Of a stretch of DNA of 64,000 nt, positions 26,337-44,981 are shown one piece after another. The DNA comes from Marmoricola sp. Lineage in GTDB: Bacteria; Actinomycetota; Actinomycetes; Propionibacteriales; Nocardioidaceae. The stretch covers positions 1 through 64,000 of the forward strand of contig JAOPXK010000129.1 in assembly GCA_025965195.1 (NCBI GenBank). The letters are read 5' to 3'. Made by a program: the position numbers and the translations under genes. Under the pieces are notes generated by a model. It had not been told where the DNA came from and made no database searches. It was given only the letters and a program-made list of their open reading frames with translations. Every line of letters begins with the position of its first letter. Within the stretch, counting starts at the first letter, position 1.

Positions 26337-26394
26337 TCACAGCCTCCTTAATCGATGGACACCCAGGGAACAATTCTCCGAACACACTCCGGCG

Positions 26395-27465: not shown

Positions 27466-27502
27466 CCGTCTCAAACTCCTCATGTCGATGGATTGGAGAG
27501 CA

Positions 27503-28633
27503 TCAAACGGGACGCAATCCAGAGAGTGAATCCACAGCCTTCAACCCATGGCCGGTCATTATCGCCACCGTCACCTCACCAGGGCCGACAACTCCTGACT
27601 CGCACAACTGACGGGCGGCCGCAGCACAGACCGCAGTGGTGGGCTCCACGAAAAGGCCGAACTCACGTCCAACACTCTTCAATGCCAAGATGATCGCCTC
27701 CTCTGAGACAGCCACAGTGTCGCCACGGCTCTCCCTCAGCGCCTCGAGGATCTCCGGGACTCGCACCGGGGCCGACGTCGCAACGCCCTCCGCGATCGTT
27801 GGAATCCTCGGGCCCGCAGGGGTGCCCTTCCACGCGTCGTGAATCGCCGCACAGTTTGCGGCCTGGGCCGCAAAGATCCTCGGGAGCCGAGCGATCTGAC
27901 CGGCAGCCAGGAGCTCGCTGAACCCTCGGTACAGACCCAACACATTGCTTCCGAAGCCAGCCGGCGCAACCACATTGTCGGGGGCTACAAAGCCTAGTTG
28001 TTCCCAGATCTCGTAGGCGACAGTCTTCACACCTTCCACAAAGAGTGGGTGCCAGTTGTGACTTGCGTAAAACACGCCCGTCTCGGCCGAAAAAGTCTGT
28101 GCCGCCACAGCGGTGTCCTCGCGGGAGCCAGGCACCTTCACCACCTCGGCGCCGTACATTCTCGTCTGGACGACCTTTCCCTCACTTGTATGGGCGGGAA
28201 CGAATATCGTGCAGTCGATTCCGGCTGCCGCCGAGTAGGCGGCGATCGATGCCCCACCGTTGCCGGACGAATCTTCCGCGACGCTGCGTACGCCCAGCTC
28301 CCAGAGACGATTCATCATCACTGCCGCTCCGCGATCCTTGAACGATCCCGAGGGGCACAGGTAGTCGAGCTTCAACAGCAGCTCGCTCCCCTCCCACGAA
28401 ACCGGGACCAGGGGTGTCATCCCTTCACCAAGGGTGATGCTCGGACCTTCGGGTGGAGACTCGAGCACCTTGTTGTAGCGCCACAGTCCGCGCCGGCCAG
28501 TGTCTATTTCGTCGGGCGCCAGACCGGGCGCCCGACCGACGTCCAGATGACCTCCGCAGGAACACCGCCAAATCAACTCGTTCGCCGAGTAGACCGTACT
28601 GCAGGAACTGCAAACGTATCCCCGTGGATTCAT
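27503..28633 (-). CDS. PLP-dependent threonine synthase-like / ammonia-lyase-like enzyme
   Basis: 376 residues, fold-type II PLP enzyme. A short zinc-ribbon-like head ('YVCSSCSTVY...WRCSCGG') precedes 'LGEGMTPLVPV', the PLP lysine 'CPSGSFKDRGAAVMMNRL' (residues about 91-108), and the phosphate-binding loop 'EDSSGNGGASIAAYSAAAG'. C-terminal 'MTGHGLKAVDSLSGL' resembles threonine synthase ('TGHGLKD'). Housekeeping threonine synthase normally sits with hom and thrB; here the neighbours are D-aminoacylase (ATGA overlap) and a peptide importer, so a catabolic dehydratase or beta-eliminase acting on a hydroxy or diamino acid is more likely. Confidence 0.8.
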   Translation of the reverse strand: MNPRGYVCSSCSTVYSANELIWRCSCGGHLDVGRAPGLAPDEIDTGRRGLWRYNKVLESPPEGPSITLGEGMTPLVPVSWEGSELLLKLDYLCPSGSFKDRGAAVMMNRLWELGVRSVAEDSSGNGGASIAAYSAAAGIDCTIFVPAHTSEGKVVQTRMYGAEVVKVPGSREDTAVAAQTFSAETGVFYASHNWHPLFVEGVKTVAYEIWEQLGFVAPDNVVAPAGFGSNVLGLYRGFSELLAAGQIARLPRIFAAQAANCAAIHDAWKGTPAGPRIPTIAEGVATSAPVRVPEILEALRESRGDTVAVSEEAIILALKSVGREFGLFVEPTTAVCAAAARQLCESGVVGPGEVTVAIMTGHGLKAVDSLSGLRPV

Positions 28634-30225
28634 TTCCGACTCCTTCTCACGATGCGCCCGCCGTGCATTCCTGTCGACTCGCCACCGGCGATGCTGACGA
28701 CACCACCCACAACAACACTGTCAATACCGACCGGGTATTGCCGTGGGTCGTCATATGTTGCCCGATCGAGCACGGTCGCACTGTCGAAGACGGTCACGTC
28801 GGCTTGGTATCCCGGTCGGAGGTAGCCCATTCCCGAAAGCCCAAACGTGTCAGCGGACTGGCCGGACATTTTTCGAATGGCCGTGGCCATTGTGAGGACT
28901 GCCTCATCTCGCACGTAGGTTCCAAGAATGCGAGGAAACGTTCCGTACTGGCGAGGATGCGGCCGTTCCCCGACGTCCAGGCCATCACTTCCCACTACGG
29001 TCAGGTCGTGAGTCAGAACAGATCTCAAATCGCTCTCGCACGAGTTCGTGGTCAGATCGCCCACATCGCAGCGCTCCTCAACCAGCAGGTCACAAACAAA
29101 CGCCAGGGGGGCCTTCGCCGCGGCAGCGGAAGCGGCCGCGACCGTCTCGCCCTCCAGATATCGATTTGCCAACGACCCGACATGGGAAACGACGACGTTC
29201 TCCCATCCGACCGCCTTGACTCGGTTCTCCCAGCCTGGAAGACCTGTGTCCAGATCAAGCGCCATCCGTGCGCGCTGGGATGGGTCGTCAAGCCGCCGCA
29301 CGACGCTCTCCAAGTCATCCGCCCACACCCACGGCGGTAGAAGCATCAACATGGACGAACTACCCGCCAGATAGGGGTAGATGTCGGACGAAACCGCCAG
29401 CCCATCTCGAGACGCCTGGTCAAGCATCGCGAGGGTCTCCTGGACGACGCCATAGTTGCGCCGGCCGACACTCTTGTGATGTGAGATGGCGACCTGCGAT
29501 CCAGCCGCCCTCCCCACGTCCAGCGCCTCGCGAACGGAATCCACAAGTCCGTCCACCTGATCCCTCAAGTGGGTCGCGTAAAGCCCGCCATTGCGAGCGC
29601 TCACCTCAGCGAGGGCCACGAGCTCGTCTGTTGATGCATACACGCCCGGCGGGTAGGCGAGTCCGGAGGATATCCCGAGAGCCCCGTGATCCATAGCGAG
29701 CTGGACGGCCGCCTTCATGGCCTCCAGTTCGGAGGCCGTCGGCTCCCGATTGTCGAGTCCCATAACCGCGGCCCGCACATTTCCGTGACCAACAAGTGTG
29801 GCCACATTGACGCTGGTCCCTCGGCGCACCAGGACATCGAAATAGTCATTGAGATCCTGCCATTCCCAGTCGACCTCAGGATGCCCAAAGATCGGCGACG
29901 AAAGCTCTCTGATCGCGCGACCGCCGGGGCCGTGATGCGGATATGCCGACCAGCCACAGTTGCCAAGAATCTCCGTGGTCACCCCTTGTCGCAACTTGCT
30001 TTGCGCTTCCGGCTCGGCCACCAAGGCCAGCTCGGAGTGACAATGGACGTCGATGAAGCCGGGTGCGACGGTTTTTCCAGAGGCGTCGATCCGCTCACGT
30101 GACAACTGAGATGCCAGCTCGCCGATCTCGTCAATTCGTCCGTTCGAAATGGCAACATCGGCAACGATCGGTTCCGCACCGCTGCCGTCGTAGACGGTTC
30201 CGCCTGTGATCAAGAGGTCGTGCAC
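28630..30225 (-). CDS. N-acyl-D-amino-acid deacylase (D-aminoacylase), copy 1
   Basis: 531 residues from GTG at 30225 (VHDLLITGGTVYDG), which has AGGAGA about 10 bases upstream; 31 extra residues in the track are not family sequence. Amidohydrolase-superfamily elements: 'VAPGFIDVHCHSELAL' (HxH with Cys between, where copy 2 has Thr), the zinc Cys in 'EILGNCGWSAYPHHGPGG', 'YATHLRDQVDGLVDSVREAL', metal His in 'VAISHHKSVGRRNYG', and Asp in 'LTVVGSDGLDVGERPHPRQY'. Hydrolyses N-acyl-D-amino acids to D-amino acid and fatty acid or acetate. Stop overlaps the start of the PLP gene (ATGA); 37 bases downstream of the DppC-like permease. Confidence 0.9.
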   Translation of the reverse strand: MHDLLITGGTVYDGSGAEPIVADVAISNGRIDEIGELASQLSRERIDASGKTVAPGFIDVHCHSELALVAEPEAQSKLRQGVTTEILGNCGWSAYPHHGPGGRAIRELSSPIFGHPEVDWEWQDLNDYFDVLVRRGTSVNVATLVGHGNVRAAVMGLDNREPTASELEAMKAAVQLAMDHGALGISSGLAYPPGVYASTDELVALAEVSARNGGLYATHLRDQVDGLVDSVREALDVGRAAGSQVAISHHKSVGRRNYGVVQETLAMLDQASRDGLAVSSDIYPYLAGSSSMLMLLPPWVWADDLESVVRRLDDPSQRARMALDLDTGLPGWENRVKAVGWENVVVSHVGSLANRYLEGETVAAASAAAAKAPLAFVCDLLVEERCDVGDLTTNSCESDLRSVLTHDLTVVGSDGLDVGERPHPRQYGTFPRILGTYVRDEAVLTMATAIRKMSGQSADTFGLSGMGYLRPGYQADVTVFDSATVLDRATYDDPRQYPVGIDSVVVGGVVSIAGGESTGMHGGRIVRRSRK

Positions 30226-30262
30226 TGTCGTCGAGTCTCCTATGACTGAGAGATGATGGAAA

Positions 30263-31099
30263 TCAACCCACTGATCCACGGGTCGAATGAGGATCCAGCT
30301 GGTCCCGCAAGGCGTCACCGAACATATTCAAAGCAAGCACGGTGACGACGATCGCGAGGCCGGGAAAGATGGAGAACCAAGGCGCCAGGGACAGATAGGT
30401 CCGTGAGTCCGCGAGCATGTTTCCCCACGTGGGAGCCGGCGGTGCGACACCGAGGCCGAGGAAGCTCAGTGACGCGTCGAGAAGCACTGCTTCCGCGAAT
30501 ACAAACGTCCCCTGGATGATTATTGGGGCCATCGCATTCGGAAGGACATGGCGCAACAGGATGGATGGGCCACGGACGCCGACTGCGCGTGCCGCCTCCA
30601 CATATTGCTCCTCACGGAGTTGCATTGTCGATGACCGCACGACGCGCATTATTCGCGGCCAGTAGGCAATCGAGAGAGCCAGAATCTCACTTCGGACACT
30701 CGGTCCGAGCGCTCCGACAAGTGCAATGGCAAGGAGAAAGGATGGAAATGCCATGAGACCATCAAGAAATCGCGACAGGGTACGGTCTACGGCGCGATAG
30801 TATCCAGCCAGGAGGCCGGACACTGTCCCGAGCAGGAGAGCGACGAGGGACACGGACGCACCGATCAGCATTGAGATCCTGCCACCGGTGACCACTCTGC
30901 TAAGAATGTCTCGGCCGAAGTTGTCGGTCCCCAACAGATGGCTCGCCGATGGGCCAACAAGTCGTTGCGCTACGTTGATCCGGTTCGGGTCTGCCGCCCA
31001 AAGCGGCGCGGTGACAGCCGCCAGCACGACGGCGACGAGAACTGCGAGGGAAACCACGGCGAGCGGTCTCCGCATTAACCCAGCGACAGTCGTTCGCAT
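30263..31099 (-). CDS. dppC: Peptide ABC transporter permease (DppC-like)
   Basis: 278 residues, six predicted membrane helices. ATG at 31099 follows GGAGG closely; the track's TTG start lies over that site. N-terminal helix 'LAVVSLAVLVAVVLAAVTA', DppC marker 'HLLGTDNFGRDILSRVVTGG' (residues about 56-75), and the ATPase-coupling EAA loop 'YVEAARAVGVRGPSILLRHV' followed by 'LPNAMAPIIIQ'. C-terminal 'APWFSIFPGLAIVVTVLALN' with 'GDALRDQLDP' is typical of the family. Partner of DppB, DppD and DppF homologues in the operon. Confidence 0.93.
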   Translation of the reverse strand: MRTTVAGLMRRPLAVVSLAVLVAVVLAAVTAPLWAADPNRINVAQRLVGPSASHLLGTDNFGRDILSRVVTGGRISMLIGASVSLVALLLGTVSGLLAGYYRAVDRTLSRFLDGLMAFPSFLLAIALVGALGPSVRSEILALSIAYWPRIMRVVRSSTMQLREEQYVEAARAVGVRGPSILLRHVLPNAMAPIIIQGTFVFAEAVLLDASLSFLGLGVAPPAPTWGNMLADSRTYLSLAPWFSIFPGLAIVVTVLALNMFGDALRDQLDPHSTRGSVG

Positions 31100-31150
31100 T
31101 GCGCCTCCTTCCAATCTGGACAGTATGGTGATCGAGAACTCGGGCCCGGA

Positions 31151-32095
31151 TTATCGATATTGAACTCTGGGGTCGAGGACCGAATAGAGTAGATCAATGA
31201 GGAGATTCACCAGCACATACACAAGGGCAACGAACATCACTGCGCCAGTTAGAACCGGGAAATCGCGCGATGCGATCGACTGAACGATCAGGTTGCCGAC
31301 GCCGGGGATCGCGAAGACCACTTCCGTAACCACGGCACCGCCTAGAAGGCCCGCGAGACTCGTCCCGATCACTGTGACAGTCGGAATGAGGGCGTTGCGA
31401 AACGCGTGATGTAGCAGTACGAGACGCTCCCCCGCGCCCTTGGCGCGCGCCGTCCGAATGTAATCCTGGTGCAGGACGTCGAGCATCCCGTCGCGAAGCA
31501 TTCGTGCGATCAGGCCGGCCTGTTGAATAGCCAACACAAATGCAGGCATCAGCAAGTGGGAGAACCACAACCCAACACCTTGGTCAAGGGGCACATAACC
31601 AGACACTGGAAGCCAGCCGAGTTTGACCCCGAACAATGAGATCATCATCAGGGCCAACCAGAAGTTGGGCATCGATACGCCTAGCAACGAACCGGACATG
31701 AAGATCGGGTCGAGGAGACTCCCGCGCTTCCATACCGCCAGTAGTGCGCTAGGAATGGCGATCACGAGACTGAACACGAAGGCCAGGCCCGCGAGACTCG
31801 CTGTGGGCCCCACGCGTACGGCAACCGTGTGGACGACTGATTGCTGATAGAACAGCGATGTACCCAGGTTGCCCCGACAGACATGTTCGACCCAGGTAAG
31901 GAACTGCTTCCAAAGTGGCTGATCGAGTCCCAGCTGGTGGCGCAGAACTTTCACTCGGGCGGGCGTGGCGGCGTCTCCAAGTATCACCTGTGCGGGATCA
32001 CCTGGAGTCAGGTGAATGAGCATGAAGACGACGATGCCCACCACGAGGAGCACTGGGATTATGGCCAGCACTCTCCGCACGATGTAGCCGATCAT
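31151..32095 (-). CDS. dppB: Peptide ABC transporter permease (DppB-like)
   Basis: 314 residues, six membrane helices. 'YIVRRVLAIIPVLLVVGIVV' and 'FMLIHLTPGDPAQVILGD' are the DppB/GsiC N-terminal pattern; 'LGLDQPLWKQFLTWVEHVCR' follows. EAA loop 'YIRTARAKGAGERLVLLHHA' and 'FRNALIPTVTVIGTSLAGLL', then 'VVTEVVFAIPGVGNLIVQSI'. Ends 'LLYSVLDPRVQYR', as in close relatives. Lies 51 bases upstream of dppC and 136 bases downstream of the binding protein. Confidence 0.94.
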   Translation of the reverse strand: MIGYIVRRVLAIIPVLLVVGIVVFMLIHLTPGDPAQVILGDAATPARVKVLRHQLGLDQPLWKQFLTWVEHVCRGNLGTSLFYQQSVVHTVAVRVGPTASLAGLAFVFSLVIAIPSALLAVWKRGSLLDPIFMSGSLLGVSMPNFWLALMMISLFGVKLGWLPVSGYVPLDQGVGLWFSHLLMPAFVLAIQQAGLIARMLRDGMLDVLHQDYIRTARAKGAGERLVLLHHAFRNALIPTVTVIGTSLAGLLGGAVVTEVVFAIPGVGNLIVQSIASRDFPVLTGAVMFVALVYVLVNLLIDLLYSVLDPRVQYR

Positions 32096-32231
32096 CCAAT
32101 ACCTTCTTTCAACTGCGGTGGGGAGCTCGCGCTCCCCACCGCAACTCTCTCGGTTATGGACACAGTGATCTACGAATTGATCGCGCTGGTTCCTCGCGTC
32201 GAGTCGTTAAAGGCAGACCACGTGGCATCTG

Positions 32232-33839
32232 TTAGTTCTTGGTCATCCAAGCGTTCCAGAAGGTCGTGTCCATCCAGTTCGGGTAGCCCTGCAAATTCTT
32301 ACTGGCTACATAGAGGGCCGACAGGGTCGCCGATTTGATCTCGGGTACCTCTGTGTAGACCGTCTCGTTCATCTGTCCCAAGAGATCCGTCTTCACGGCG
32401 GGGTCAGAGGTCTTCACCCACTGTGCGAGGAGTGAGTCCATTTTGGGGCTCGTGTAGAACCCGGACCACCCACCAGGAATCATCCACAGCATGGAGGTTG
32501 GATCGAAAGACGGGGAACTCGTGGTTACAAATATGTCGTAGTCAGAGGCGATGTCCCTGCGCTGCAACAAGGTGGGCCAGTCATAAACTTGGATATCGAC
32601 CTTGAATCCAACGGCCTCTAGTTCTGAGCTGAGCGCAACCGTGGCATTGTAGAACTCGGGATAGTCTTTGGTGGTCAGAAGGCGAATCGGCTTGCCATCG
32701 TAACCGCCCTGCGTAACGAGTTGTTTGGCCTTTGCAATGTTCTGGTCGTTGTACAGACTCGTTCCCGTGAGCGTGTGCAGCGCCGCCTGCTGGGGGAAGA
32801 AGATCGAGCCATCGAGTGAGTAGAGGGCCTTGTTGCCGACGGCAGCGGCGCCGATCTCACTCGGGTTTGATGCGTACTGCGCAGCTTGACGCAGCAGGAC
32901 GTTGTTGAAGGGGCCGGACTGCTTGTTGAAGACGAAGGCCAGGAAAGCGTAGGGATCGACGATGAAAGGTTGTACGGTCGGCATCGTCTTGACTTGATCG
33001 TAGTTGTCCTGGGGGACATTCACTGCGAATTGGTATTCGCCCGTCTGTACACCATTGATGCGAACTTGGGGATCCGTCACGATTTGGTAGTCGAGCTTGT
33101 CGAAGTACGCGGCCTTTGCGCCAGCCAATCCACCCCAGTTCTCGGTAAGCGATTTGTACTGATCGAATCGCTTCAAGACGATCGAGCTTCCGGGGGTACG
33201 GCTCTCAAGTTCGTACGGTCCAGTGCCGATGATCTGTTTGTCTTCAAGTGCGTTGACACCTGCCGCGTTGGCGATGGCCGATGGGAGCATGATGGCCGCC
33301 TGCCTGACATCGGCCAGATCAATGAGAAGGGGACCGAACAGGCTCTTGAGTTTGATCTGGACGGTGTCCGGGCCCTCTGCCGTCACACTCTTCACATGCT
33401 GGAAGGTCTCGACTCCTGTCCCGGAGACTTTGCCCCAGCGTTCAAGGGAGGCCACAACATCGGCTGAGTCGAAGTCACTGCCGTCTTGGAACTTGACTCC
33501 GGTTCGCAACTTGATGGTATAGGTCAGTTTGTCTGGACTGACTTTCGCGGACTGGGCGAGCATAGGTCGTTCGACATAGTTCTTGTCGAGTGCGAAGAGT
33601 TGCTCAAAGATGTTCCAGGACACGGCTCGTGTCACCACGGCCGATGTCGATGTCCAGTCCAGCGTGGCCGGATCTGCGTTGAGCGCGATCTTGAGTGTGC
33701 CCCCCTTCACGGGCGGGCCCGCGGCGGAGTTCTGCGCGGTTCCCGTCGAAGCACTGCCGCAGGCTGCAAGTAAGCCCATTGAACCGACCGCCAAGAGCAC
33801 CATGATGGTGCGGGACAACCTTCGTCTAAGCCTAGGCAT
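32232..33839 (-). CDS. dppA: ABC transporter substrate-binding lipoprotein, family 5 (DppA/OppA-like)
   Basis: 535 residues. Lipoprotein signal with basic start and lipobox ('LLAVGSMGLLAACGSAS', Cys about 27). Family-5 marks: 'KGGTLKIALNADPATLDWTS', 'TYTIKLRTGVKFQDGSDFDS' and 'ADVVASLERW' (residues about 120-155), 'GTGPYELESRTPGSSIVLKR', and the C-terminal 'YDWPTLLQRRDIASDYDIFV'. It sets the specificity of the importer; the ligand is not readable but family members bind peptides, glutathione, D-amino-acid-containing peptides, opines or nickel. First gene after the DppF-like ATPase in the transport operon. Confidence 0.92.
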   Translation of the reverse strand: MPRLRRRLSRTIMVLLAVGSMGLLAACGSASTGTAQNSAAGPPVKGGTLKIALNADPATLDWTSTSAVVTRAVSWNIFEQLFALDKNYVERPMLAQSAKVSPDKLTYTIKLRTGVKFQDGSDFDSADVVASLERWGKVSGTGVETFQHVKSVTAEGPDTVQIKLKSLFGPLLIDLADVRQAAIMLPSAIANAAGVNALEDKQIIGTGPYELESRTPGSSIVLKRFDQYKSLTENWGGLAGAKAAYFDKLDYQIVTDPQVRINGVQTGEYQFAVNVPQDNYDQVKTMPTVQPFIVDPYAFLAFVFNKQSGPFNNVLLRQAAQYASNPSEIGAAAVGNKALYSLDGSIFFPQQAALHTLTGTSLYNDQNIAKAKQLVTQGGYDGKPIRLLTTKDYPEFYNATVALSSELEAVGFKVDIQVYDWPTLLQRRDIASDYDIFVTTSSPSFDPTSMLWMIPGGWSGFYTSPKMDSLLAQWVKTSDPAVKTDLLGQMNETVYTEVPEIKSATLSALYVASKNLQGYPNWMDTTFWNAWMTKN

Positions 33840-33886
33840 GTGATATCTCCATTGTGTTTAACGATTTCCAGGGGTTGACGCTGGGT

Positions 33887-34987
33887 CTAGCGCATTTCCG
33901 ACGTTGCTGGTTGTGCAAGAGGAAAGTGGCAGGCCACCTCATGGTTCTCTCCGATTGAATGCAAGATCGGCTCCTCTTTTGAACACAGTTCTTCTGCGCG
34001 GACGCAGCGCGTGCGAAATCGACACCCTGAGGGCGGATTTGTGGGTGACGGAACCTCACCCTGGAGAACTATTCGCTCACGGTTGTTGTGTGGGTCAGGC
34101 ACGGGTAGCGCAGATAGAAGTGCGGAAGTGTAGTGATGTGCCGGCGTGGTGAATATTCTTTCGGCCGGCGCGATCTCGACCAGTTTGCCCAGGTACATCA
34201 CCGCAACTCGATCGGAGATATGTCTCACAACATCGAGACCGTGTGCAATGAAGAGGTAAGTGAGGCCCAGTTCACGCTGAAGGTCCATCAAGAGATTGAT
34301 GACCTGCGACTGCACAGAGACATCAAGTGCGGAGACTGCCTCATCGGCAACGATGAACTTGGGATTGAGGGCAATTGCCCGAGCTATCCCGACGCGCTGG
34401 CGTTGCCCGCCTGAGAACTCGTGCGGATATCGATCCTTACGGGAGGGGTCCAACCCCACCAGCTCGAGTAGCTCGGAGACACGAGCGGCGCGTTCCTTGC
34501 CTCGAGAGATCCTGTGCACCCGGAGGGGCTCGCCAACGATCTCGCCGATCGTAAAGCGAGGATTGAGCGAACCGAACGGGTCTTGGAATACGACCTGCAT
34601 CTGTCGACGCATGTCGCGCATCTTCCGCTCCGGGAGACTCATCAGGTCCTGGCCCTCGAAGAGCACCTGTCCGCTCGTCTCAGGCATCAGGCGCACCAGC
34701 AGCCGACCAAGAGTCGACTTCCCGGAGCCGGACTCACCGACCAGGCCGAGCGTCTCGCCGGCGAAGATGCTGAACGACACATCATCTACAGCTCTGACAT
34801 TGACAGTTCCTCTGCCCAACTTCCCGTCCCTGATCGGGAAGTACTTCCTGAGGCCGTACACGTCCAACAGATGGTCGGGCTGTTCACCCTGTGCTGTCTC
34901 CGGCTTGTCGATGATCTTCAACCCCTCCTGCACAGCCACGCTGTCCTGATCGATCTGCACAGCCACGCTCTCCTGATCGATGCACAT
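33887..34987 (-). CDS. dppF: Oligopeptide/dipeptide ABC transporter ATP-binding protein (DppF/OppF-like)
   Basis: 366 residues if started at ATG 34987 (MCIDQES), which overlaps the stop of a short upstream ORF as TGATG; the track's start is 8 codons earlier and has no ribosome site. After an unusual repeated N-terminus, the ATPase begins at '[16 protein letters not shown]'. Walker A '[14 protein letters not shown]', Q-loop '[16 protein letters not shown]', signature '[17 protein letters not shown]', Walker B '[12 protein letters not shown]' (Ala replaces the usual Pro-Thr context, catalytic Glu kept) and '[20 protein letters not shown]'. The switch loop reads IAHGL where IAHDL is usual. C-terminal oligopeptide-family Cys motif '[14 protein letters not shown]'. 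Confidence 0.9.
34928..34981 (-). repeat. 27-base tandem duplication at the start of the dppF-like gene
   Basis: Two adjacent 27-base units (34928-34954, 34955-34981) differ at one base. In frame they encode IDQESVAVQ and IDQDSVAVQ. Each unit contains CAGGAG/CAGGAC followed by GTG, so the duplication also duplicates a possible ribosome site and start. Confidence 0.9.
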
Positions 34988-35106
34988 CAGACTCGGTCTG
35001 CCCGGTTCCATACGCGGAGCTGTCCGGGTTGCGACAGACTGTAGGTCCGATGTACTTTGAGGTCAAGAGGTTTCGCTTCGAACTTCTCGGGATCGTACTT
35101 GTTCAC
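34987..35106 (-). CDS. Possible small ORF translationally linked to dppF
   Basis: The frame reading '[20 protein letters not shown]' and ending '[10 protein letters not shown]' stops at 34987 in TGATG, overlapping the probable dppF start. Residue composition (K, D, E, Y, aromatic mix) looks protein-like. The frame continues upstream to a GTG at 35124 that is directly against AGGAGG; GTG at 35106 is about 18 bases from it, so neither start is ideal. It may be a leader peptide, a remnant of a larger gene or chance. No family recognised. Confidence 0.3.
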
Positions 35107-35152
35107 GTCGAAGGTGATACCCACCCTCCTCTCACCCCAGGAGATTGAGCGT

Positions 35153-35695
35153 ATGAAGACGGACCACGTGGATGCTGTCCTCGCTGGCTGGGCGGAAGAG
35201 TGGCCCGAGCTGGATGCGTCAGCACAGGGTGTGATCGGACGTATCTCGCGGTTGTCACGTTTCTTGGAACGCGATCTGGTGCGCGTGTTCGGAGAGTTCG
35301 GCCTCACTGGTGGTGAGTTCGATGTGCTCGCCACCCTCCGGAGGGCGCTTGGATCCCGGGGTTCGTTGACTCCCACCGAGCTCACGGCAGCATGCATGCT
35401 GTCGTCGGCAGCGATGACACACCGAATTGACAGACTTGAACAGGCCGATCTCGTCAGTCGCGATCGAGACTCCGCGGACCGCCGGGAAGTGTCGGTGCGC
35501 CTGACGTCAAAGGGTCAAGCTCTCATCGAACAGGCGCTCGTCGTGCATACCGGCAACGAAAGCAGAATGCTCGACGCTTTGACCGCTGAGGATCGGGAGT
35601 CGCTCGCTGGACTCTTGCGGAAGCTTCTACAGCCGATCGAGGCACACGGGGGCATAAGCATCAAGCCTCGGAACACTGAAGACGAGCGCGCTTGA
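35153..35695 (+). CDS. MarR-family transcriptional regulator
   Basis: 180 residues from ATG at 35153 (MKTDHVDAVLAGW), 9 bases after AGGAG; the 32 extra residues of the track ORF lie in the divergent promoter region. Winged helix: 'FLERDLVRVFGEFGLTGGEF', 'DVLATLRRALGSRGSLTPTE', recognition helix 'SSAAMTHRIDRLEQADLVSR' and wing 'DSADRREVSVRLTSKGQAL'. Divergent from the dppF-dppA-...-M20 operon and upstream of ridA and the racemase, so it is the likely local regulator. No clear palindrome was found in the short divergent region. Confidence 0.85.
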   Translation: MKTDHVDAVLAGWAEEWPELDASAQGVIGRISRLSRFLERDLVRVFGEFGLTGGEFDVLATLRRALGSRGSLTPTELTAACMLSSAAMTHRIDRLEQADLVSRDRDSADRREVSVRLTSKGQALIEQALVVHTGNESRMLDALTAEDRESLAGLLRKLLQPIEAHGGISIKPRNTEDERA

Positions 35696-35823
35696 AGCGC
35701 TTGAATACGCAACCGGCGGCTTGCGGAATGTCTTTGGCGTTCGAGCAGGTTCAGGAGTCCGGTCCCACTCGTACACCCATTGATTTGGCAGAGGTATCAA
35801 CACCACGATGAGGAAGGCAAGAC

Positions 35824-36189
35824 ATGAGTGCGGACGACGACCATGACCACCCGTATAGCGAAGCAGTAATCGCCGGGGGCCTGGTTTTCCTATCAGGATG
35901 CCTTCCAGACAATCTCCCGTCCCCAGGGACCGACCAGACGCCGTTGTCCTTGGCAATGGATGTTGTTGAGCGCCGGCTGAAGCTGGTGGGTGGAAGTCTG
36001 GAGGACATTGTCAAGTTGACTTATTTTGTGACCGACATGTCCTTGCGTGAGGGCGCCAACCAGCAGTACCTGGATCTGTGGGACGAACCACGTCCAGCCA
36101 GGACCGTGATCGGGGTGGCGTCCTTGCCAAGGAACTCCTCGGTCGAGATTGACGCCATTGCGCGATACCGCGAGTCGAAGTTGTCGTGA
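35824..36189 (+). CDS. ridA: RidA-family (YjgF/YER057c) enamine/imine deaminase
   Basis: 121 residues. RidA hydrolyses reactive enamines/imines such as 2-aminoacrylate that PLP dehydratases release. Family marks: 'HPYSEAVIAGGLVFLSG' near the start, 'LEDIVKLTYFVTDMSL' in the middle and 'ARTVIGVASLPRNSSVEIDA' (Arg binding the carboxylate, then VEIDAIA) near the C-terminus. Its GTGA overlap with the racemase gene shows coupling, and two PLP enzymes in the same island are its likely partners. Confidence 0.9.
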   Translation: MSADDDHDHPYSEAVIAGGLVFLSGCLPDNLPSPGTDQTPLSLAMDVVERRLKLVGGSLEDIVKLTYFVTDMSLREGANQQYLDLWDEPRPARTVIGVASLPRNSSVEIDAIARYRESKLS

Positions 36190-36914
36190 TTGGCCCTAAC
36201 GCTGTGCGTGCTTCTGGCCCGCCCCTTATAGGCATCCTGGGTGGAATGGGTCCCGCTGCGACGGTCGACTTTTATGCCAAACTTACCGCCGCAACGTCTG
36301 CAAAGTCCGACCAAGAGCACGTGCCCGTGGTTATTTGGGCCGACCCCACGGTGCCCGACCGGGTGGCCGCGCTGGTCAACGGCCAGGAGGATCCCACACC
36401 GTGGTTGGTCTATGGCGCACAGATGCTCGCCAAGTGTGGAGCAGACCTGATTGTGATGCCCTGCAACACGGCTCACGCATTCCTGCCTGGCTTGGAATCT
36501 GCGGTGGATACTCCGATCATCAGCATGATTGAAGCGGCCGTGGATTGCCTTGCGGACGTAACGCCCTCCCCCCTGAAAGTGGGTCTCCTCGCTACGGACG
36601 GGACATTGCAGACCCGACTTTATCAGTCCCAACTTTCGCGCAGCGGTATCGCGTGTATAACGCCTCGGAACAACTCTCAGCAATTCTTGATGGAGGCCCT
36701 TAAGTCCATCAAGGCGGGTGATGTTGGCGCAGACGTGGAAGATTGTCTAACTCAAGTTGCGTTAGGTCTGGTTGAAGACGGTGCAGAGGTAATTATTGCC
36801 GGTTGCACCGAAATTTTGATTAGTCTTCGACCTGAATCCGTGCCAGTTCCCGTGATTGACCCTGCGCGCGAACTCGCTCACAAGGCGATACAGATCTGGC
36901 GCCTGTCGGCTTAA
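36186..36914 (+). CDS. Aspartate/glutamate racemase family protein
   Basis: 242 residues, PLP-independent two-cysteine racemase. 'LIGILGGMGPAATVDFYAKL' (residues about 14-33) is the Asp racemase signature; the two catalytic cysteines are in 'LIVMPCNTAHAFLPG' (about 95) and 'EVIIAGCTEILISL' (about 206). Both are present, so activity is likely. It interconverts L- and D-Asp, D-Glu or a related amino acid. GTG start overlaps the ridA stop. Codons are notably AT-rich for this genome (one 60-base line inside it is 45% GC by hand count). Confidence 0.9.
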   Translation: MIGPNAVRASGPPLIGILGGMGPAATVDFYAKLTAATSAKSDQEHVPVVIWADPTVPDRVAALVNGQEDPTPWLVYGAQMLAKCGADLIVMPCNTAHAFLPGLESAVDTPIISMIEAAVDCLADVTPSPLKVGLLATDGTLQTRLYQSQLSRSGIACITPRNNSQQFLMEALKSIKAGDVGADVEDCLTQVALGLVEDGAEVIIAGCTEILISLRPESVPVPVIDPARELAHKAIQIWRLSA

Positions 36915-37107
36915 TGCCGGCTGCTGCGAGACGTCGCCGAGAAACGCGACATCGGCGATGTCACCACCCTCGCAGACCTCCACCGTGATGGACCTCATCA
37001 AGGAAGGCGCGGCGGATCGGTATCGGTAGCGAGCTGAGCACCCCTCTCGAACCCGTTCGACGGGCCCGGGTCCACGTGCACAGGCAATCTACTGCGGGGG
37101 CGTCGGA

Positions 37108-38736
37108 TCAGCCTCGAGCCGCTCCAACTTTCTTACGCAAGACGCGCCCTGGCGCCGCTCCAGTGTCAACGCCCCCTTCGACAACCACGACGCCATTGAC
37201 GACGACCATCTGAACCCCGACGCTCAATTGATGAGGGTCCTCAAATGTTGCCCGATCCGAAACACTCGCCGGGTCGAACAAGACCAAGTCAGCAGCATGC
37301 CCTTCGCGAATCAGTCCCCGATCACGAAACCCAAGACGCCTTGCTGGCAGTGAAGTCATCTTCCGAACTGCTTCCTCAAGTCTCAGAACATGCTCCTCCC
37401 TCACATAACTGCCAAGGACCCGCGAGAACGTCCCGTAACTCCGCGGATGCGGTCGGCCCCCTGCAGTCGGGCTGAGCGTCCACCCGTCGCTCGCGATCAT
37501 ACTTCGCCCGTGCTTCATGATCTTCTGAATATTCTCCTCTGATTGACCATGAACAACGGTCAATACTTCGCCTCTCGTCTCCGTGATGAGGTCCAAGACC
37601 GTATCAACCGGAAGCTCCTGCCGCGCGGCAGCCACTTCAGTCAACGTCATTCCGATGTAGCGTTCCAACGATGAAGGCCCGTCAGCAAGCACAACTTCGT
37701 CAGGCGCAAACTCACGAAGTCCACCCATGAGGTCGGCGGGACTCTGCAATACGATCTGATTCCGTATCTTCTCCCGCTCGGCAGGGGTCGATAGCCTGCG
37801 AACCACCTGATCTATTCCGCCGGAAAGGGACCAGGCCGGCAACAGCGCAACGAGACCAGTACTACTGGCCGTATACGGGTACTGGTCCAATGTCACGTCT
37901 TGCCCCAGCACAACGGCCTGATCAACCATCTCCAATGTGGTCGCGACCTTGTGCCAGTTTGCACGGCCCATGGCTTTGTGATGGCTCACCTGAACTGGAA
38001 CATCGGCGTCGGAACCGATTCTCAGCGCCTCGCCGAGCGCTTCCACAAGAGTGATCGCCTCGTTCCGCAAGTGCGTTGAATAGAATCCGCCGTACTTCCC
38101 AACCACCTTTGCCAACTCGACAAGCTCAGCTGTCTCCGCCAAACTCGCTGGCGCGTAGGTGAGGCCGCTCGACATGCCGTAAGCACCGGCAATCATCGCT
38201 GCGGCGACGAACCCCTTCATCTCCTCCATCTGAGATCGTGACGGAGGGCCCTCTTCGAACCCCATTGCTGCGATCCGCACGCTGCCGTGGCCAACTTGGC
38301 ACGCCAAATTCACGGCCAAGGGCAGACCAGATACAAAGGTCATGAATCCATCTGCGTCACTCCACGCTCCCCATGGCAATCCACCATCAAGGAACGCCGT
38401 GTATTCGCGAAGCAGGTCGCCTCTGCGCCCATCAACCGGAAAGGGGGAGAAACCGCAATTCCCAGCAACCTGCGTTGTCACGCCCTGCATTGTCATCGAC
38501 ATGGCCCGCGGGTAACAAGGAAGGGTGAAATCACTATGCGTATGAATATCAATGAACCCCGGACTCAGGACCAGCCCAGACGCATCGACATGCGTCACTC
38601 CAAATGTCTTCGGCAGTGACTTGGCCCTGGCAACTGCGACTATACGATCATGTTGGGTGACAACATCGCCGCGCCAAGAATCGGCACCGGTCCCATCCAC
38701 AATGGTGGCGTCATGAAATACAATCCCTGTCTTCAA
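37108..38736 (-). CDS. N-acyl-D-amino-acid deacylase (D-aminoacylase), copy 2
   Basis: 542 residues. Zinc-binding 'LVLSPGFIDIHTHSDFTL' (HTHSD as in the Alcaligenes enzyme), 'TQVAGNCGFSPFPVDGRRG' with the bridging Cys, 'YSTHLRNEAITLVEALGEAL', 'VQVSHHKAMGRANWHKVATT' and catalytic Asp in 'SMIASDGWTLSPTAGGRPHP'. All expected ligands are present. It belongs to the same family as copy 1 (28630-30225) but differs at several active-site-adjacent residues, suggesting different acyl or side-chain preference. It follows the D-serine-dehydratase-like gene by 49 bases on the same strand. Confidence 0.9.
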   Translation of the reverse strand: MKTGIVFHDATIVDGTGADSWRGDVVTQHDRIVAVARAKSLPKTFGVTHVDASGLVLSPGFIDIHTHSDFTLPCYPRAMSMTMQGVTTQVAGNCGFSPFPVDGRRGDLLREYTAFLDGGLPWGAWSDADGFMTFVSGLPLAVNLACQVGHGSVRIAAMGFEEGPPSRSQMEEMKGFVAAAMIAGAYGMSSGLTYAPASLAETAELVELAKVVGKYGGFYSTHLRNEAITLVEALGEALRIGSDADVPVQVSHHKAMGRANWHKVATTLEMVDQAVVLGQDVTLDQYPYTASSTGLVALLPAWSLSGGIDQVVRRLSTPAEREKIRNQIVLQSPADLMGGLREFAPDEVVLADGPSSLERYIGMTLTEVAAARQELPVDTVLDLITETRGEVLTVVHGQSEENIQKIMKHGRSMIASDGWTLSPTAGGRPHPRSYGTFSRVLGSYVREEHVLRLEEAVRKMTSLPARRLGFRDRGLIREGHAADLVLFDPASVSDRATFEDPHQLSVGVQMVVVNGVVVVEGGVDTGAAPGRVLRKKVGAARG

Positions 38737-38785
38737 GGCCAGGCCCTCTTCCGACGTCGTTCGACGAACCTTGCATCAACGCACG

Positions 38786-40081
38786 TCAAAAGAACGTGCG
38801 GACTCCCCCAATCACGGCTCCAGAATCGTCGATCAGTGGCAGCAACGGCGACTTCTCAAACGCGCCACAGGGGTGAGACACACCTAAAGCGACAATATCG
38901 CCCGGAGCCAATTCGACCTCGGGAGCAATCGCTACCAGCGCGTGCTGATCAAACAATGCAGTAATTACACCCTGGTTGGTTAGATCTACCACCCCGCCAT
39001 CGCGCGAGTAGGCTCGCCGTAGGCAAGGCAGTTCCACATCGTAGGGAACATCGCGTCGCCCCGCTCCGAGCACCACCAATCCGGGCTCGGGTCGTGAGAG
39101 TACAACTGCCCACACGTCCAATGCGTCCTGAAGCTCCAGAACCTCGTCCGGGTTGCGACGCCCGTCCAGCGGCGAAAGCCGGTGGTAGCGACCCGAGTCA
39201 TGTGACACGTAACAACCGCTCCGGAGCACCAGTCTTGCGTCGATTCCCGACTTCGACCAGTCGCTCAGGGAGTGCACTACGCGGTCGAAGTAGACACTGC
39301 CTCCTGCACTGACCAGCGGATCGGGTCGGGCAAGGAGCTCACCCTCAAAAAGCTCGGTGACGAGAATACGAGTCCGATCCAGCAGAGCATCCACCGCTGC
39401 CAGATCTGCCGGCGCAGAACCCCGTGCGACAACTCCCTCGTACGTCTCGACTCCGGCCAGCTGCAAGTTCCGGGACGCCTTGACGGCCCGGGCCACCTGC
39501 ATAGCGGAATCTGTGGTCCGGCAGCCCGTCCGACCACCTTCTGCTCCGAGTTCCAACAAGACGTTCATTCGGCGCCCGGGCGCACAGTCGTCCAAGGTCC
39601 GGTCCATGAGAGCAACTGTCTGCGGATCGTCTACCAAACAGTAGAAGTCGAACGCGGCGTCGGTGCGCAGCTGCTCGCAGACCCAACGCAGGGGGCCCGG
39701 CTCGACAAGCTCGTTCGCGAGGAGGATACGAGGCACCCCGTACTTGCGCATCACGGCCATTTGCGACGACGTGGCGGCGGTTATTGCCCACGCTCCGGCG
39801 TCAAGCTGGCGCTTGAAGAGTTGAGGAGCCATCGTGGTCTTTCCATGTGGCGCGAAGAGTGCCCCATAGCGCCTGGCATATGCTGCCATGGCTTCGATGT
39901 TCCCAGTCAGCGCGCCTTCCCGGAGGGTCGTGACCGGGAGGGGCAGATCGCCCTTGGTGACATTCCAACCCTGGCTCCCGAGCTCGCTCAGCCTGATACG
40001 TGTGCCGAGCGGAACCCCCTTGTATTCACAATCAAGAATCGTCTCGTCGCAGCCTTCGCCGACGTCGATGTGCGCGTTCAT
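38786..40081 (-). CDS. D-serine dehydratase-like / D-threonine aldolase-like PLP enzyme (fold type III)
   Basis: 431 residues. Alanine-racemase N-terminal barrel with PLP lysine in 'LFAPHGKTTMAPQLFKRQLD' (about 75-95). The C-terminal DSD1 domain ends 'VALGVSHPCGAFEKSPLLPL', where His and Cys (HPC) are the zinc ligands of eukaryotic-type D-serine dehydratases. It would dehydrate or split D-Ser, D-Thr or other 3-hydroxy-D-amino acids, giving an imine that RidA could hydrolyse. Start ATG at 40081; it precedes D-aminoacylase copy 2, so release of a D-amino acid and its deamination would be co-expressed. Confidence 0.85.
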   Translation of the reverse strand: MNAHIDVGEGCDETILDCEYKGVPLGTRIRLSELGSQGWNVTKGDLPLPVTTLREGALTGNIEAMAAYARRYGALFAPHGKTTMAPQLFKRQLDAGAWAITAATSSQMAVMRKYGVPRILLANELVEPGPLRWVCEQLRTDAAFDFYCLVDDPQTVALMDRTLDDCAPGRRMNVLLELGAEGGRTGCRTTDSAMQVARAVKASRNLQLAGVETYEGVVARGSAPADLAAVDALLDRTRILVTELFEGELLARPDPLVSAGGSVYFDRVVHSLSDWSKSGIDARLVLRSGCYVSHDSGRYHRLSPLDGRRNPDEVLELQDALDVWAVVLSRPEPGLVVLGAGRRDVPYDVELPCLRRAYSRDGGVVDLTNQGVITALFDQHALVAIAPEVELAPGDIVALGVSHPCGAFEKSPLLPLIDDSGAVIGGVRTFF

Positions 40082-41371: not shown

Positions 41372-42064
41372 TCAAACAGGGGGGAAGCTGGCGACCACAA
41401 CAGCCGCAACGTGCTGGATGTGGGCATCCATCGCGGAAGCCGCCAAGTCTGATTTGCCGTCCGAGATCGCCTGGGCGATCTCGATGTGCTCCTGCGCGCA
41501 ACCGACAGTCCCCTCCGACGGCGACAGGTCCCTCTCTCTCAGCACGGAGGTCAGGAGGAGGGCATCCGCAACTGCAGCCTCGGTCATGGGGTTGCCCGCG
41601 GCTCGAGCGACGGTTGCGTGGAACTCGTGGTCCCACTGCCGGAAGCCAGGCCCATCCCCCTCGACGGCTGCTCGGAGAGCTTGTTCGGCGGCCGACAGAA
41701 GCGCCGCGATATCGGGCGTGGACACCCGTTGCGCAGCATAGAACGCGGCGGAACGCTCAATGCCGGCTCGTAACTCATACGCGTCACGAATCGCGGTTCG
41801 CGAGGGCTCGATCACCCTCAGCCCGTCACCGGACGGCACGACCAGCCCAATGTGTTTGAGACGGAGAAGTACATCGCGCACCGGTGTCCGGCTCACATTG
41901 AGCTGGACCGCAAGAGCTGCAGCGGTCACTCGACTGCCCGGGGCCAGCGTCTTGTCGACAATCGCCTCCTTGATCTTGTCGAAGACCAGGTCCGTTCGTG
42001 ACGACGGCGGGGACGGCAGCGGCGACAACAGCGACCGCCCGATGTGTGTCACTGCATCCTGCAT
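41372..42064 (-). CDS. GntR-family regulator (FCD subfamily)
   Basis: 230 residues from ATG at 42064 (MQDAVTHIGR); the track's TTG start lies in the operator region. N-terminal winged helix 'LVFDKIKEAIVDKTLAPGSR', 'VTAAALAVQLNVSRTPVRDV' and 'LLRLKHIGLVVPSGDGLRVI', then an all-helical FCD ligand domain: 'RDAYELRAGIERSAAFYAAQ', 'DHEFHATVARAAGNPM' and 'EEHIEIAQAIS'-like end with metal-binding Asp/His positions. FCD regulators bind small carboxylates. It is divergent from the amidohydrolase/enolase genes and probably controls them and possibly the SDR. The 183 bases downstream (41189-41371) hold no gene. Confidence 0.88.
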   Translation of the reverse strand: MQDAVTHIGRSLLSPLPSPPSSRTDLVFDKIKEAIVDKTLAPGSRVTAAALAVQLNVSRTPVRDVLLRLKHIGLVVPSGDGLRVIEPSRTAIRDAYELRAGIERSAAFYAAQRVSTPDIAALLSAAEQALRAAVEGDGPGFRQWDHEFHATVARAAGNPMTEAAVADALLLTSVLRERDLSPSEGTVGCAQEHIEIAQAISDGKSDLAASAMDAHIQHVAAVVVASFPPV

Positions 42065-42077
42065 ACAGGACACGGTA

Positions 42078-42095
42078 CTTGGTGTACGCTCCAAG
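42078..42095. promoter_or_regulatory. Candidate GntR operator
   Basis: CTTGGTGTACGCTCCAAG is an inverted repeat with 5-base arms and a GTAC-containing centre, 14 bases upstream of the GntR start, overlapping a TTGACG that could be a -35 element on the minus strand. Typical position for autoregulation. Confidence 0.5.
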
Positions 42096-42263: not shown

Positions 42264-43055
42264 GTGCAGACCGCGACGGTGTCATCACTGAAGTTCTATG
42301 ACTGCAACGCTTTGATTGGCAGACCGGCGATTCCGCGGTTCTTCCCAGATCCTGTCTCAGGGGAGGTACTGCTACGAGAGATGGACCGAATCGGAGTCGA
42401 GAGCGCAGTTGTCACCCACGTGGCCGCGCGTGAATACTCGCCTCGGGTAGGAAATGACCTCCTGGTGGACGCAGTCAGCGTCGAACCTCGGCTCACCGGG
42501 TGCATGACACTTCTGCCCGACCACACAGACGAGCTCTGGGACACCGCGGCAGTTCTCAACGAACTGAAGCGGCGCGACGCGCGCTGCGTTCGGCTGTTCC
42601 CGAGCGAGAGTCTGCATCGATATCCGCTCGACCATCGAGTCCTCGGCGATCTTTTTGAAGTGCTCGAATCAGCCCGGGTGCCGACTCTTCTGGACTTCGA
42701 CCTGGGCCGGCGAGACGAGGCTGATTGGCGCGCGCTCTACGACTTGGCGGATAGATATCCATTGCTCCCAATGATCATAATCCGCCCCGGCGGCCGCAGT
42801 GACCGCGGACTGTATCCCTTGCTCAAACGATCTCCGAACGTGTCCGTGGAGACAGGCGGCTACTGGGTGCACCGAGGAATTGAGCGAATTTGCGAACGCT
42901 TTGGCGCTGAGCGTTTGGTCTATGGTTCCGGGTTCCCCTATTGGACAATGAGCGGTGCCGCATTCCACGTGGCCTCCGCGAGGGTGTCAGCGTCAGAGAA
43001 GATGGCTATTGCAAGCGGCAATCTGGAAGCGCTTATGTCGGGGGTATCGCTGTGA
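42264..43055 (+). CDS. Amidohydrolase-fold protein without metal ligands (probable pseudoenzyme)
   Basis: 263 residues from GTG at 42264, 8 bases after GGGAGG; the longer track ORF runs back through the GntR gene. TIM-barrel amidohydrolase-2 family by its spacing of strands and by 'LLREMDRIGVESAVVTHVAA', 'VLGDLFEVLESARVPTLLDF' and 'RICERFGAERLVYGSGFPYW'. All expected metal positions are changed: DxHxH is 'YDCNALIG', the LGHAG histidine is 'IIRPGG', and the WGSD aspartate is 'YGSGFP'. Its stop overlaps the start of an intact homologue (GTGA). Likely a non-catalytic partner subunit. Confidence 0.78.
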   Translation: MQTATVSSLKFYDCNALIGRPAIPRFFPDPVSGEVLLREMDRIGVESAVVTHVAAREYSPRVGNDLLVDAVSVEPRLTGCMTLLPDHTDELWDTAAVLNELKRRDARCVRLFPSESLHRYPLDHRVLGDLFEVLESARVPTLLDFDLGRRDEADWRALYDLADRYPLLPMIIIRPGGRSDRGLYPLLKRSPNVSVETGGYWVHRGIERICERFGAERLVYGSGFPYWTMSGAAFHVASARVSASEKMAIASGNLEALMSGVSL

Positions 43056-43840
43056 TCCATGAATTTCGGCCCTTCACGAAGGCGACACCAATCATCGACG
43101 CCCATGCGCACATGGGCTCCTACCGGAACTTCAATATCCCTTGGAATGACGCAGATGGAATGATCGAGCAGATGGATGCCGCCGGCATCGACCTTGCCTG
43201 CGTAAGCCATCATGCGAGTATCTCAGCTGATCATACGTACGGGAACAGCATCATCAGAGCGGCCGTATCTCAGCACCCCGGAAGGTTCTTGGGGTATTGC
43301 GTCATCAACCCAAATTATCCGGAGTCGGCGTCGTCGGAAATCGAGAAATGTTTCGCAACGGGATCCTTCGCAGGCTTCAAGGCGCACCCTGAACTTCATG
43401 GCAACTACCCCTTGAACGGGCCGGGGTACGAGCCGATGTGGAAGTACGCTGACGCTCATGGGCTTCCGGTACTTTTCCACAGCTACTTCGGTGGCGATCA
43501 ACTGGCCATCTTCGAGTCTCTAGCCAATCTTTATCCAGGAGCGACCCTGCTCCTAGGGCACGCGGGTCTTGATCTCGGCCTTGACAACGCAGTGGCGCTG
43601 ACCACCAGGGTCGACAACGTGGTCCTTGACATGACCGCGATGCAACGACACTGCTGGGCAGTCGAGTACCTGGCTGCTCGGGCGAGTTCTGAGCGACTCG
43701 TGTGGGGTTCTGACAGTCCCTTCATAGATCCCACGCCCATGCTGGGCGCCATTGCGCTGGCCGCAATCCCAGAAGGCGTCCGCGACGCGATCCTCTATCA
43801 CAATATGGCTCGAATCCTGAGAATCGATCTTCAGTCATGA
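43052..43840 (+). CDS. Metal-dependent amidohydrolase (amidohydrolase_2/TIM-barrel family)
   Basis: 262 residues from GTG at 43052, which overlaps the preceding stop. Metal ligands are intact: 'PIIDAHAHMGSYRNF' (HxH), 'GLPVLFHSYFGGDQ', 'GATLLLGHAGLDLG' and 'RLVWGSDSPFIDPTP'. Family enzymes hydrolyse lactones or amides or decarboxylate aromatic acids (ACMSD-like, OMPDC-like). With the enolase-superfamily gene next to it and an FCD regulator upstream, a carboxylate or lactone substrate is plausible. Same length and fold as the upstream ligand-less protein. Confidence 0.85.
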   Translation: MIHEFRPFTKATPIIDAHAHMGSYRNFNIPWNDADGMIEQMDAAGIDLACVSHHASISADHTYGNSIIRAAVSQHPGRFLGYCVINPNYPESASSEIEKCFATGSFAGFKAHPELHGNYPLNGPGYEPMWKYADAHGLPVLFHSYFGGDQLAIFESLANLYPGATLLLGHAGLDLGLDNAVALTTRVDNVVLDMTAMQRHCWAVEYLAARASSERLVWGSDSPFIDPTPMLGAIALAAIPEGVRDAILYHNMARILRIDLQS

Positions 43841-43874: not shown

Positions 43875-44981
43875 ATGTTGAAGATTCGAGCTGTAGAGGC
43901 TATCCCGGTACGAGTTCCGCGAGTTCATGCGTCAGAGAGTGCGTTCGGCATCCGGTCGCACACCGACGCCGGGATAGTGCGCATCGAGGCCTCCGACGGT
44001 GTCGTTGGCTGGGGCGAGATTTCACTGGTTTGGTGGCGGCTGGGCAGCGGTTTGTGTGAAGCAGTCAATGAAATCCTCGCGCCGGCGCTGATCGGCGAAG
44101 ACCCGATGGCGATCTCGCGAATCATGGAGAAACTACGCTCGCTCCTTCCCGGCAAGCACGACGGACCGGCGCTCGCTGGAATCGAAATGGCTCTGATCGA
44201 CCTCGTCGGGCGTGAAACATCCTTACCTGCCTATATGTTCTTGGGCGGAGCCTTTCGCACCAAGATCGATCTCAGCATGTCGCTTCACATCGCCGAACCG
44301 AGCGCCGTGGCTGCCGAGGCAACCAAGTGGGTCGCGCAAGGATTCTCGACTCTCAAGATCAAGATGGGCCGCGACTGGAACCGAGACCGTCTGGCACTCG
44401 AGGCCGTTCGGTCCGCCGTGGGTGCCGGGGTGAGGTTGAGGGTCGATGTCAACGAGGGTTGGTCGTCTGTTCCGCTCGCAGCGTCTCGCCTTGATGAGAT
44501 GAGACAATATGACGTCGAGCTGGTTGAGCAGCCATTGGGCGCCGAGGACCTCATCGGAATGAGAGAACTGCGGGCTCGCTCGTCAATACCCCTCGCTATC
44601 GATGACGGCGTGTGGACCGCTCGCGATGCGTCGGACATCATCCGGGAGCGGGCCGCCGACGTGCTCAATGTCTACGTCAGTGAGAGCGGAGGCATGATCG
44701 CGGGTAGACATATCGCCGAGGTCGCGCGCACTGCCGGACTGCAGTGCTGGGTGGGGAGCATGCCCGAATTGGGGATAGGGACTGCGGCCAACGCCCACCT
44801 CGCGGCAGCCATGCCGGAACTGTCGCTTGCATCTGATGTCTGCGGCTTTCTGTATCACGCGGCGGATGTCCTGACGACGCCGCTCGTCGTCGACAACGGG
44901 AGTATCGCTGTACCCACCGGCCCGGGCCTGGGTATCGAGGTCGACTCCGCAGCGGTTGAGAACTGGCGACTGCGGGCCTGA
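43875..44981 (+). CDS. Enolase-superfamily protein, muconate-lactonizing subgroup-like
   Basis: 368 residues. N-terminal capping domain ('AVEAIPVRVPRVHASES', 'GVVGWGEISLVWWRLG') and a modified TIM barrel. The first catalytic lysine motif is present ('GFSTLKIKMGRDWNRDR', KxK), and the three metal ligands can be read in 'RLRVDVNEGWSS', 'VELVEQPLGAEDL' and 'PLAIDDGVWTAR'. The second catalytic lysine of the subgroup, normally KxGG at the end of strand 6, is Glu: 'DVLNVYVSESGGMIAG'. Possible activities are cycloisomerase, dipeptide epimerase, N-acylamino-acid racemase or dehydratase; the Lys-to-Glu change argues against two-base racemisation. Confidence 0.8.
   Translation: MLKIRAVEAIPVRVPRVHASESAFGIRSHTDAGIVRIEASDGVVGWGEISLVWWRLGSGLCEAVNEILAPALIGEDPMAISRIMEKLRSLLPGKHDGPALAGIEMALIDLVGRETSLPAYMFLGGAFRTKIDLSMSLHIAEPSAVAAEATKWVAQGFSTLKIKMGRDWNRDRLALEAVRSAVGAGVRLRVDVNEGWSSVPLAASRLDEMRQYDVELVEQPLGAEDLIGMRELRARSSIPLAIDDGVWTARDASDIIRERAADVLNVYVSESGGMIAGRHIAEVARTAGLQCWVGSMPELGIGTAANAHLAAAMPELSLASDVCGFLYHAADVLTTPLVVDNGSIAVPTGPGLGIEVDSAAVENWRLRA

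Follow-up and report, generated by a model that had tools for sequence, protein, structure and literature searches.

A ligand-less amidohydrolase-fold protein encoded beside an intact one in Marmoricola: a widespread gene pair and a candidate heteromer

The gene pair and its surroundings

The window, a stretch of 64,000 nucleotides from Marmoricola sp. (contig JAOPXK010000129.1, positions 1 to 64,000), contains two adjoining genes, here called A and B, that both encode proteins of the Pfam family PF04909 (Amidohydro_2). These genes and their nearest neighbors are as follows.

41372..42094, minus strand: divergent GntR/FCD regulator (PF07729 and PF00392)
42264..43055, plus strand: gene A, ligand-less Amidohydro_2 protein, 263 aa, GTG start
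43052..43840, plus strand: gene B, Amidohydro_2 protein with a complete HHHHD metal site, 262 aa, GTG start
43875..44981, plus strand: mandelate racemase/muconate lactonizing (MR/MLE, enolase superfamily) gene, MR_MLE_C 190.9 bits

Inspection of the open reading frames showed that the GTG start of B overlaps the TGA stop of A as GTGA, and that purine-rich stretches lie upstream of both starts (gggagg for A and ggggg for B). Relative to the curated PF04909 cut-off of 26.4 bits, the profile score was weak for A (39.2 bits) and strong for B (98.9 bits), both being above it. The coordinates, the overlap, and the presence of a full-length A beside an intact B, as given in a preliminary description of the locus, were confirmed on the sequence. 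The ligand set of metal-dependent amidohydrolases (HxH, the β5 His, the β6 His, and the β8 Asp) is present in B and absent from A: in the alignment the five positions read HHHHD in B (H18, H20, H143, H170, and D221) and NLDRG in A (N15, L17, D144, R174, and G223), and the B ligands are invariant throughout the B alignment. The description had stated that every metal ligand was lost from A; this holds at all five ligand positions, while D13 of the DxHxH motif is still present. The identity between A and B is only about 20%, indicating that their divergence is old.

AlphaFold2, given only three aligned sequences as input, modeled the barrel of B usably (pLDDT 77.7, pTM 0.83) and that of A moderately well (pLDDT 68.7, pTM 0.75). 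Foldseek placed both models among Amidohydro_2 structures (3cjp, 3irs, 5-carboxyvanillate decarboxylase, and ACMSD), with 3cjp the best match of B, and with a best E value of 1.5e-9 and TM scores by query length of about 0.62–0.70 for A. According to these models, A and B share the predicted amidohydrolase TIM-barrel fold. The best profile match of the A family was PDB 3irs (BB4693), a solved but uncharacterized protein; as it reads FGTA at the expected β8 Asp, this protein may also be partly degenerate.

The MR/MLE gene begins 34 bases past B on the same strand, and the divergent GntR/FCD gene, judged by its position, possibly regulates the pair. The loci of the two closest orthologous pairs, from Knoellia koreensis (L001) and a Schumannella MAG (L002), have a GntR gene upstream of the pair as well, as read from the sequence; they also carry genes of the NAD-dependent epimerase/dehydratase and DHDPS families, creatininase-like genes, and GntR-like regulators, some of these being read from sequence only. 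Other pairs adjoin DegT-type aminotransferase, DHDPS-family, and MR/MLE genes. From such neighbors the substrate of the pair is likely to be a sugar acid, a lactone, or an amino sugar. To the left of the pair, window positions 25158–40081 hold genes for an Opp-type ABC transporter, Asp/Glu racemase-like and D-serine dehydratase-like proteins, and two D-aminoacylase-like amidohydrolases (28630–30318 and 37108–38736), a content that suggests use of D-amino acids or peptides; the A/B pair adjoins this cluster but runs divergent from it.

Orthologues, side-by-side pairs, and fusions

The A orthologues in K. koreensis and the Schumannella MAG are 62% and 59% identical to A, respectively, and both read NFDRG at the ligand positions, so that they are ligand-less at the same sites as the window protein. 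The gene order A, B, and enolase-family (MR/MLE) gene is common to all three loci, and the A/B junctions, from ORF coordinates, are ATGA in L001 and TGATG in L002. Loss of the same positions in the same gene order makes chance or sequencing error unlikely, and a frame or sequence error in A was ruled out by the agreement of these orthologues. No close relative of A was found in the other sampled genomes of the window's own genus, and its distribution is therefore patchy. Genomes of the same order and phylum yielded remote relatives of A (about 18–32% identity), as did plasmids of Subdoligranulum, Nonomuraea, and haloarchaea; the pair class was seen in Actinomycetota, on one Bacillota plasmid, and in haloarchaea.

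The preliminary description had called for a search for conserved side-by-side pairs in other genomes, and we took a census of ligand positions in all fetched loci, counting as a neighbor an intact Amidohydro_2 domain on the same strand within 1.5 kb. Pairing proved to be widespread: 96 degenerate domains had such a neighbor versus 5 that did not. The loci were gathered mostly with A-type queries, a design that biases the proportion of degenerate domains but not the presence of an intact neighbor. Among the five partnerless domains, L146 begins at base 20 of its own contig and is cut by the contig end, and L008 (YNNHD) and L155 (LRQHN) are apparently members of other subfamilies; the YNNHD gene (L008:1495–2241, also in L116) lies in a genome of the window's genus. 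The remaining two, L028 and L029, come from one genus, belong to the A clade, and stand without an adjoining partner. Homologues of A standing alone with restored ligands were sought as well; these two were found alone, and none had its ligands restored. Two solo A-clade genes, at L051:3636–4463 and L052:3360–4187, lie in surroundings that read like class II aldolase, UroD-type methyltransferases, and a corrinoid protein; their genomes carry intact Amidohydro_2 genes elsewhere.

A smaller set comprised 70 non-redundant tandem pairs, of which 60 had the degenerate gene first, 6 had the intact gene first, 2 were intact-intact, and 2 (L018 and L114) were partly aligned, the alignment spanning only part of the intact half. 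The genes overlap or sit close together in most pairs; in three loci (L107, L108, and L111) A and B are separated by a gene for a DegT-type aminotransferase. Six loci within the 96 (L114, L148, L149, L151, L156, and L157) form a separate class in which partly degenerate HRRKD (or HRRRD) domains stand next to ..HHD domains; L114 and L151 each have a third member. Two tandem pairs keep most or all ligands (HHHHD/HHHHD in L113 and HHHHD/HHCHD in L057) and may serve as models of the condition that preceded ligand loss. We concluded that pairing is widespread and old, and no local accident.

Some of the pairs are natural fusions, which were also examined as two-domain proteins by Pfam scan. They occur in haloarchaea: two A-B fusions (L018:5803–7713, 636 aa; L120:4134–5759, 541 aa) and one B-A fusion (L120:5833–7521, 562 aa) lie on the Halomontanus plasmid NZ_CP119797, and Halosolutus NZ_CP095492 encodes another B-A fusion (L020:5149–6846, 565 aa). 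That the fusions come in both orders suggests that A and B associate physically, although fusion can also join successive enzymes of one pathway.

Descent, selection, and the pocket of A

In a tree of 129 rows, 43 degenerate-first A chains together with two solos formed one group, and the B chains of those 43 pairs grouped apart with matching subclades; the deepest splits of this tree were weakly supported. In an unconstrained tree the six intact-first A chains did not join the main A clade, though support for this placement was weak, and the data neither established nor rejected one common origin for all degenerate chains (AU p 0.747). The A and B distance matrices were correlated with r = 0.89 for 49 pairs and 0.91 for 43 pairs, and none of 1000 permutations (0/1000) gave a value as high. 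The mirrored trees show that A and B were inherited together, which is no proof of contact. Relative to L001 and L002, the window genes had identities of 59.5–61.6% for A, 61.8–64.0% for B, and 58.0–59.4% for the enolase-family gene. Median dN/dS, calculated for close relatives in clades other than that of the window gene from pairwise values that are mutually dependent and include duplicated loci, was 0.18 for A and 0.15 for B. Purifying selection acts on these relatives of A.

A clade-weighted alignment of the degenerate-first clades showed what has become of the pocket. D13 and G19 are near universal in A, the first His is replaced by N or D in 89%, the Lys at B position 110 by R in 88%, and the β5 His by D or E in 68%, and E207 is retained in 82%. 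Such conserved replacements indicate that the pocket of A has been remodeled and constrained, and not randomized. The former ligand positions nevertheless vary among A clades, reading NLDRG, RVDNG, DLEHR, NWSGY, and others. Basic residues after β6, YRxxR-like or other, occur in about 7 of 11 A clades and are represented by R178 and R181 in the window protein; they are absent from the DLDHR, DVED, and DLEHR clades and from the haloarchaeal A proteins, and an Arg is also present at this position in some B proteins.

These residues recall ACMSD (2-amino-3-carboxymuconate-6-semialdehyde decarboxylase), a dimer in which Arg239, contributed by the neighboring subunit and lying 11 residues past His228, is needed in the active site (PMC11650718). 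By the numbering, the Arg239 loop of ACMSD would correspond to the β6 loop of A, and R178 and R181 might enter the active site of B in the same manner; we regard this as rather doubtful. As a general rule it was only partly borne out, residues being missing in several A clades, and the three clades and the haloarchaeal proteins without them keep it a hypothesis. ACMSD has the same fold and family as A and B, but is a homodimer of active chains, whereas the A and B chains differ and A has no metal site; a PDB profile search also placed B nearer to 3cjp than to ACMSD.

Known systems and the proposed partnership

The closest known system is 2-aminoisobutyric acid hydroxylase, AibH1H2 (PDB 8FUN), a PF04909 heterotetramer in which AibH2, with a dinuclear Mn/Fe site and a Rieske protein as its partner, is catalytic and AibH1, which binds a Mn ion needed for folding, is auxiliary and structural; AibH2-like proteins have at times been reported without AibH1-like ones (PMC10401708, PMC12141560). 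It resembles the proposed A/B enzyme in having two PF04909 chains, one of them auxiliary; it differs in that AibH1 keeps a metal, whereas A is without all five ligands of the fold and B has the HxH/H/H/D set. The dinuclear ligands of AibH2 (D25, H27, H211, E265, D337, H340, and D342) are not those of B, which by strand order would have His at the β6 position and Phe three residues past the β8 Asp (WGSDSPFIDP). Judged by the five ligand positions of the fold, A also lacks the metal site that the auxiliary chain of AibH1H2 keeps, and a Pfam scan of seven window proteins found no Rieske ferredoxin. Membership of A and B in the AibH1H2 group was rejected on the ligand set. A further parallel is the pseudo-dihydroorotase of Pseudomonas aspartate transcarbamoylase, which is inactive and needed for ATCase activity and has related pDHO domains without zinc ligands (PMC7053772). 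It is likewise an inactive amidohydrolase-superfamily subunit required by its partner, but that partner is an unrelated transcarbamoylase and not an active chain of the same fold. In the literature searched, which took in a minority of subscription papers, AibH1H2 was the only amidohydrolase heteromer found with a non-catalytic chain of the same fold, and no description of the present pair class was found within the same scope.

The comparative evidence gives good but indirect support to a heteromer of A and B, which we consider probable. In it B would act as the metal catalyst, and A, itself without catalytic activity, would stabilize B or complete its active site. Such a heteromer would probably be 1:1, with an arrangement like that in dimers of other members of PF04909; B would hold the metal site and carry out the chemistry on a small polar metabolite, and A, a putative pseudoenzyme with its barrel kept, would replace what a second identical subunit would give, namely a stable interface and perhaps loop residues reaching the active site of B. 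The sequence features, the ligand loss in orthologues, the conserved adjacency, the mirrored trees, the purifying selection on related A genes, and the fusions are observations; the association, the division of labor, and any trans-acting residue are inferences. Against the heteromer we counted the solos L028 and L029 and the DegT gene inside three pairs, and against a residue acting in trans the clades without basic β6 residues and the Arg in some B proteins. The suggestion in the preliminary description of a heteromer whose inactive chain regulates or shapes the active site is partly supported, in that the ligand-less copy has been retained widely and for long and the fusions in both orders suggest association.

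The nearest competitor is the view that A is a metal-free enzyme in its own right that acts on a neighboring step of the same pathway, with no complex needed, in which case the fusions would reflect channeling of successive steps. Metal-free action has precedents on this fold: D-galactarolactone isomerase (COG3618) works without metal, and neither it nor LigI is known to need a partner chain. LigI, also of COG3618, is one of the cofactor-free enzymes that PF04909 includes (PMC10811679); the only matches bearing on COG3618 were weak profile matches to 2ffi and 4i6k. The constrained pocket of A (D13, N/D at the first His, R110, D/E at the β5 His, and E207), the two A-clade genes without an adjoining partner, and the three loci in which DegT parts A from B would also suit such an enzyme. 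Successive enzymes, however, need neither a shared fold nor constant adjacency, whereas 96 of 101 degenerate domains stand beside an intact one of the same fold, and the differences among A clades at the former ligand positions leave no single new catalytic set visible; we consider this reading unlikely.

Distinctly less probable still is a regulatory subunit whose remodeled pocket binds an effector and controls B allosterically. The conserved polar remodeling would suit ligand binding, and the precedent for regulatory amidohydrolase-fold subunits is indirect, but the variation of the former ligand residues among A clades means that the effectors would have to differ too. That A is a decaying, functionless duplicate, as the loss of all five ligand residues might suggest, is hardly credible: recent decay was ruled out by the low A-B identity, by conservation of A like that of the enolase-family protein, and by the dN/dS near 0.18 in related A genes, and the mirrored trees and the fusions also speak against it. 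Because the same pair, sometimes fused, recurs across bacteria and haloarchaea, the ligand-less half is most likely a needed partner.

In its broadest form the proposal is of an old and large class of two-chain amidohydrolases: after duplication, one subunit would have given up every metal ligand and turned into an obligate half, acting in trans, of a composite active site, with fusions arising later and perhaps several independent origins; we hold this conceivable, at somewhat less than an even chance. PF04909 has been described as comprising more than 100,000 proteins (PMC10811679), which annotation labels simply as "amidohydrolase"; if one gene of each pair encodes a pseudoenzyme subunit, screening of single genes would miss the activity. 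A heteromer with one non-catalytic amidohydrolase chain is already known in AibH1H2, and the pairs offer many natural replicates in which to ask why one half of a symmetric enzyme drops its metal site, and what replaces it.
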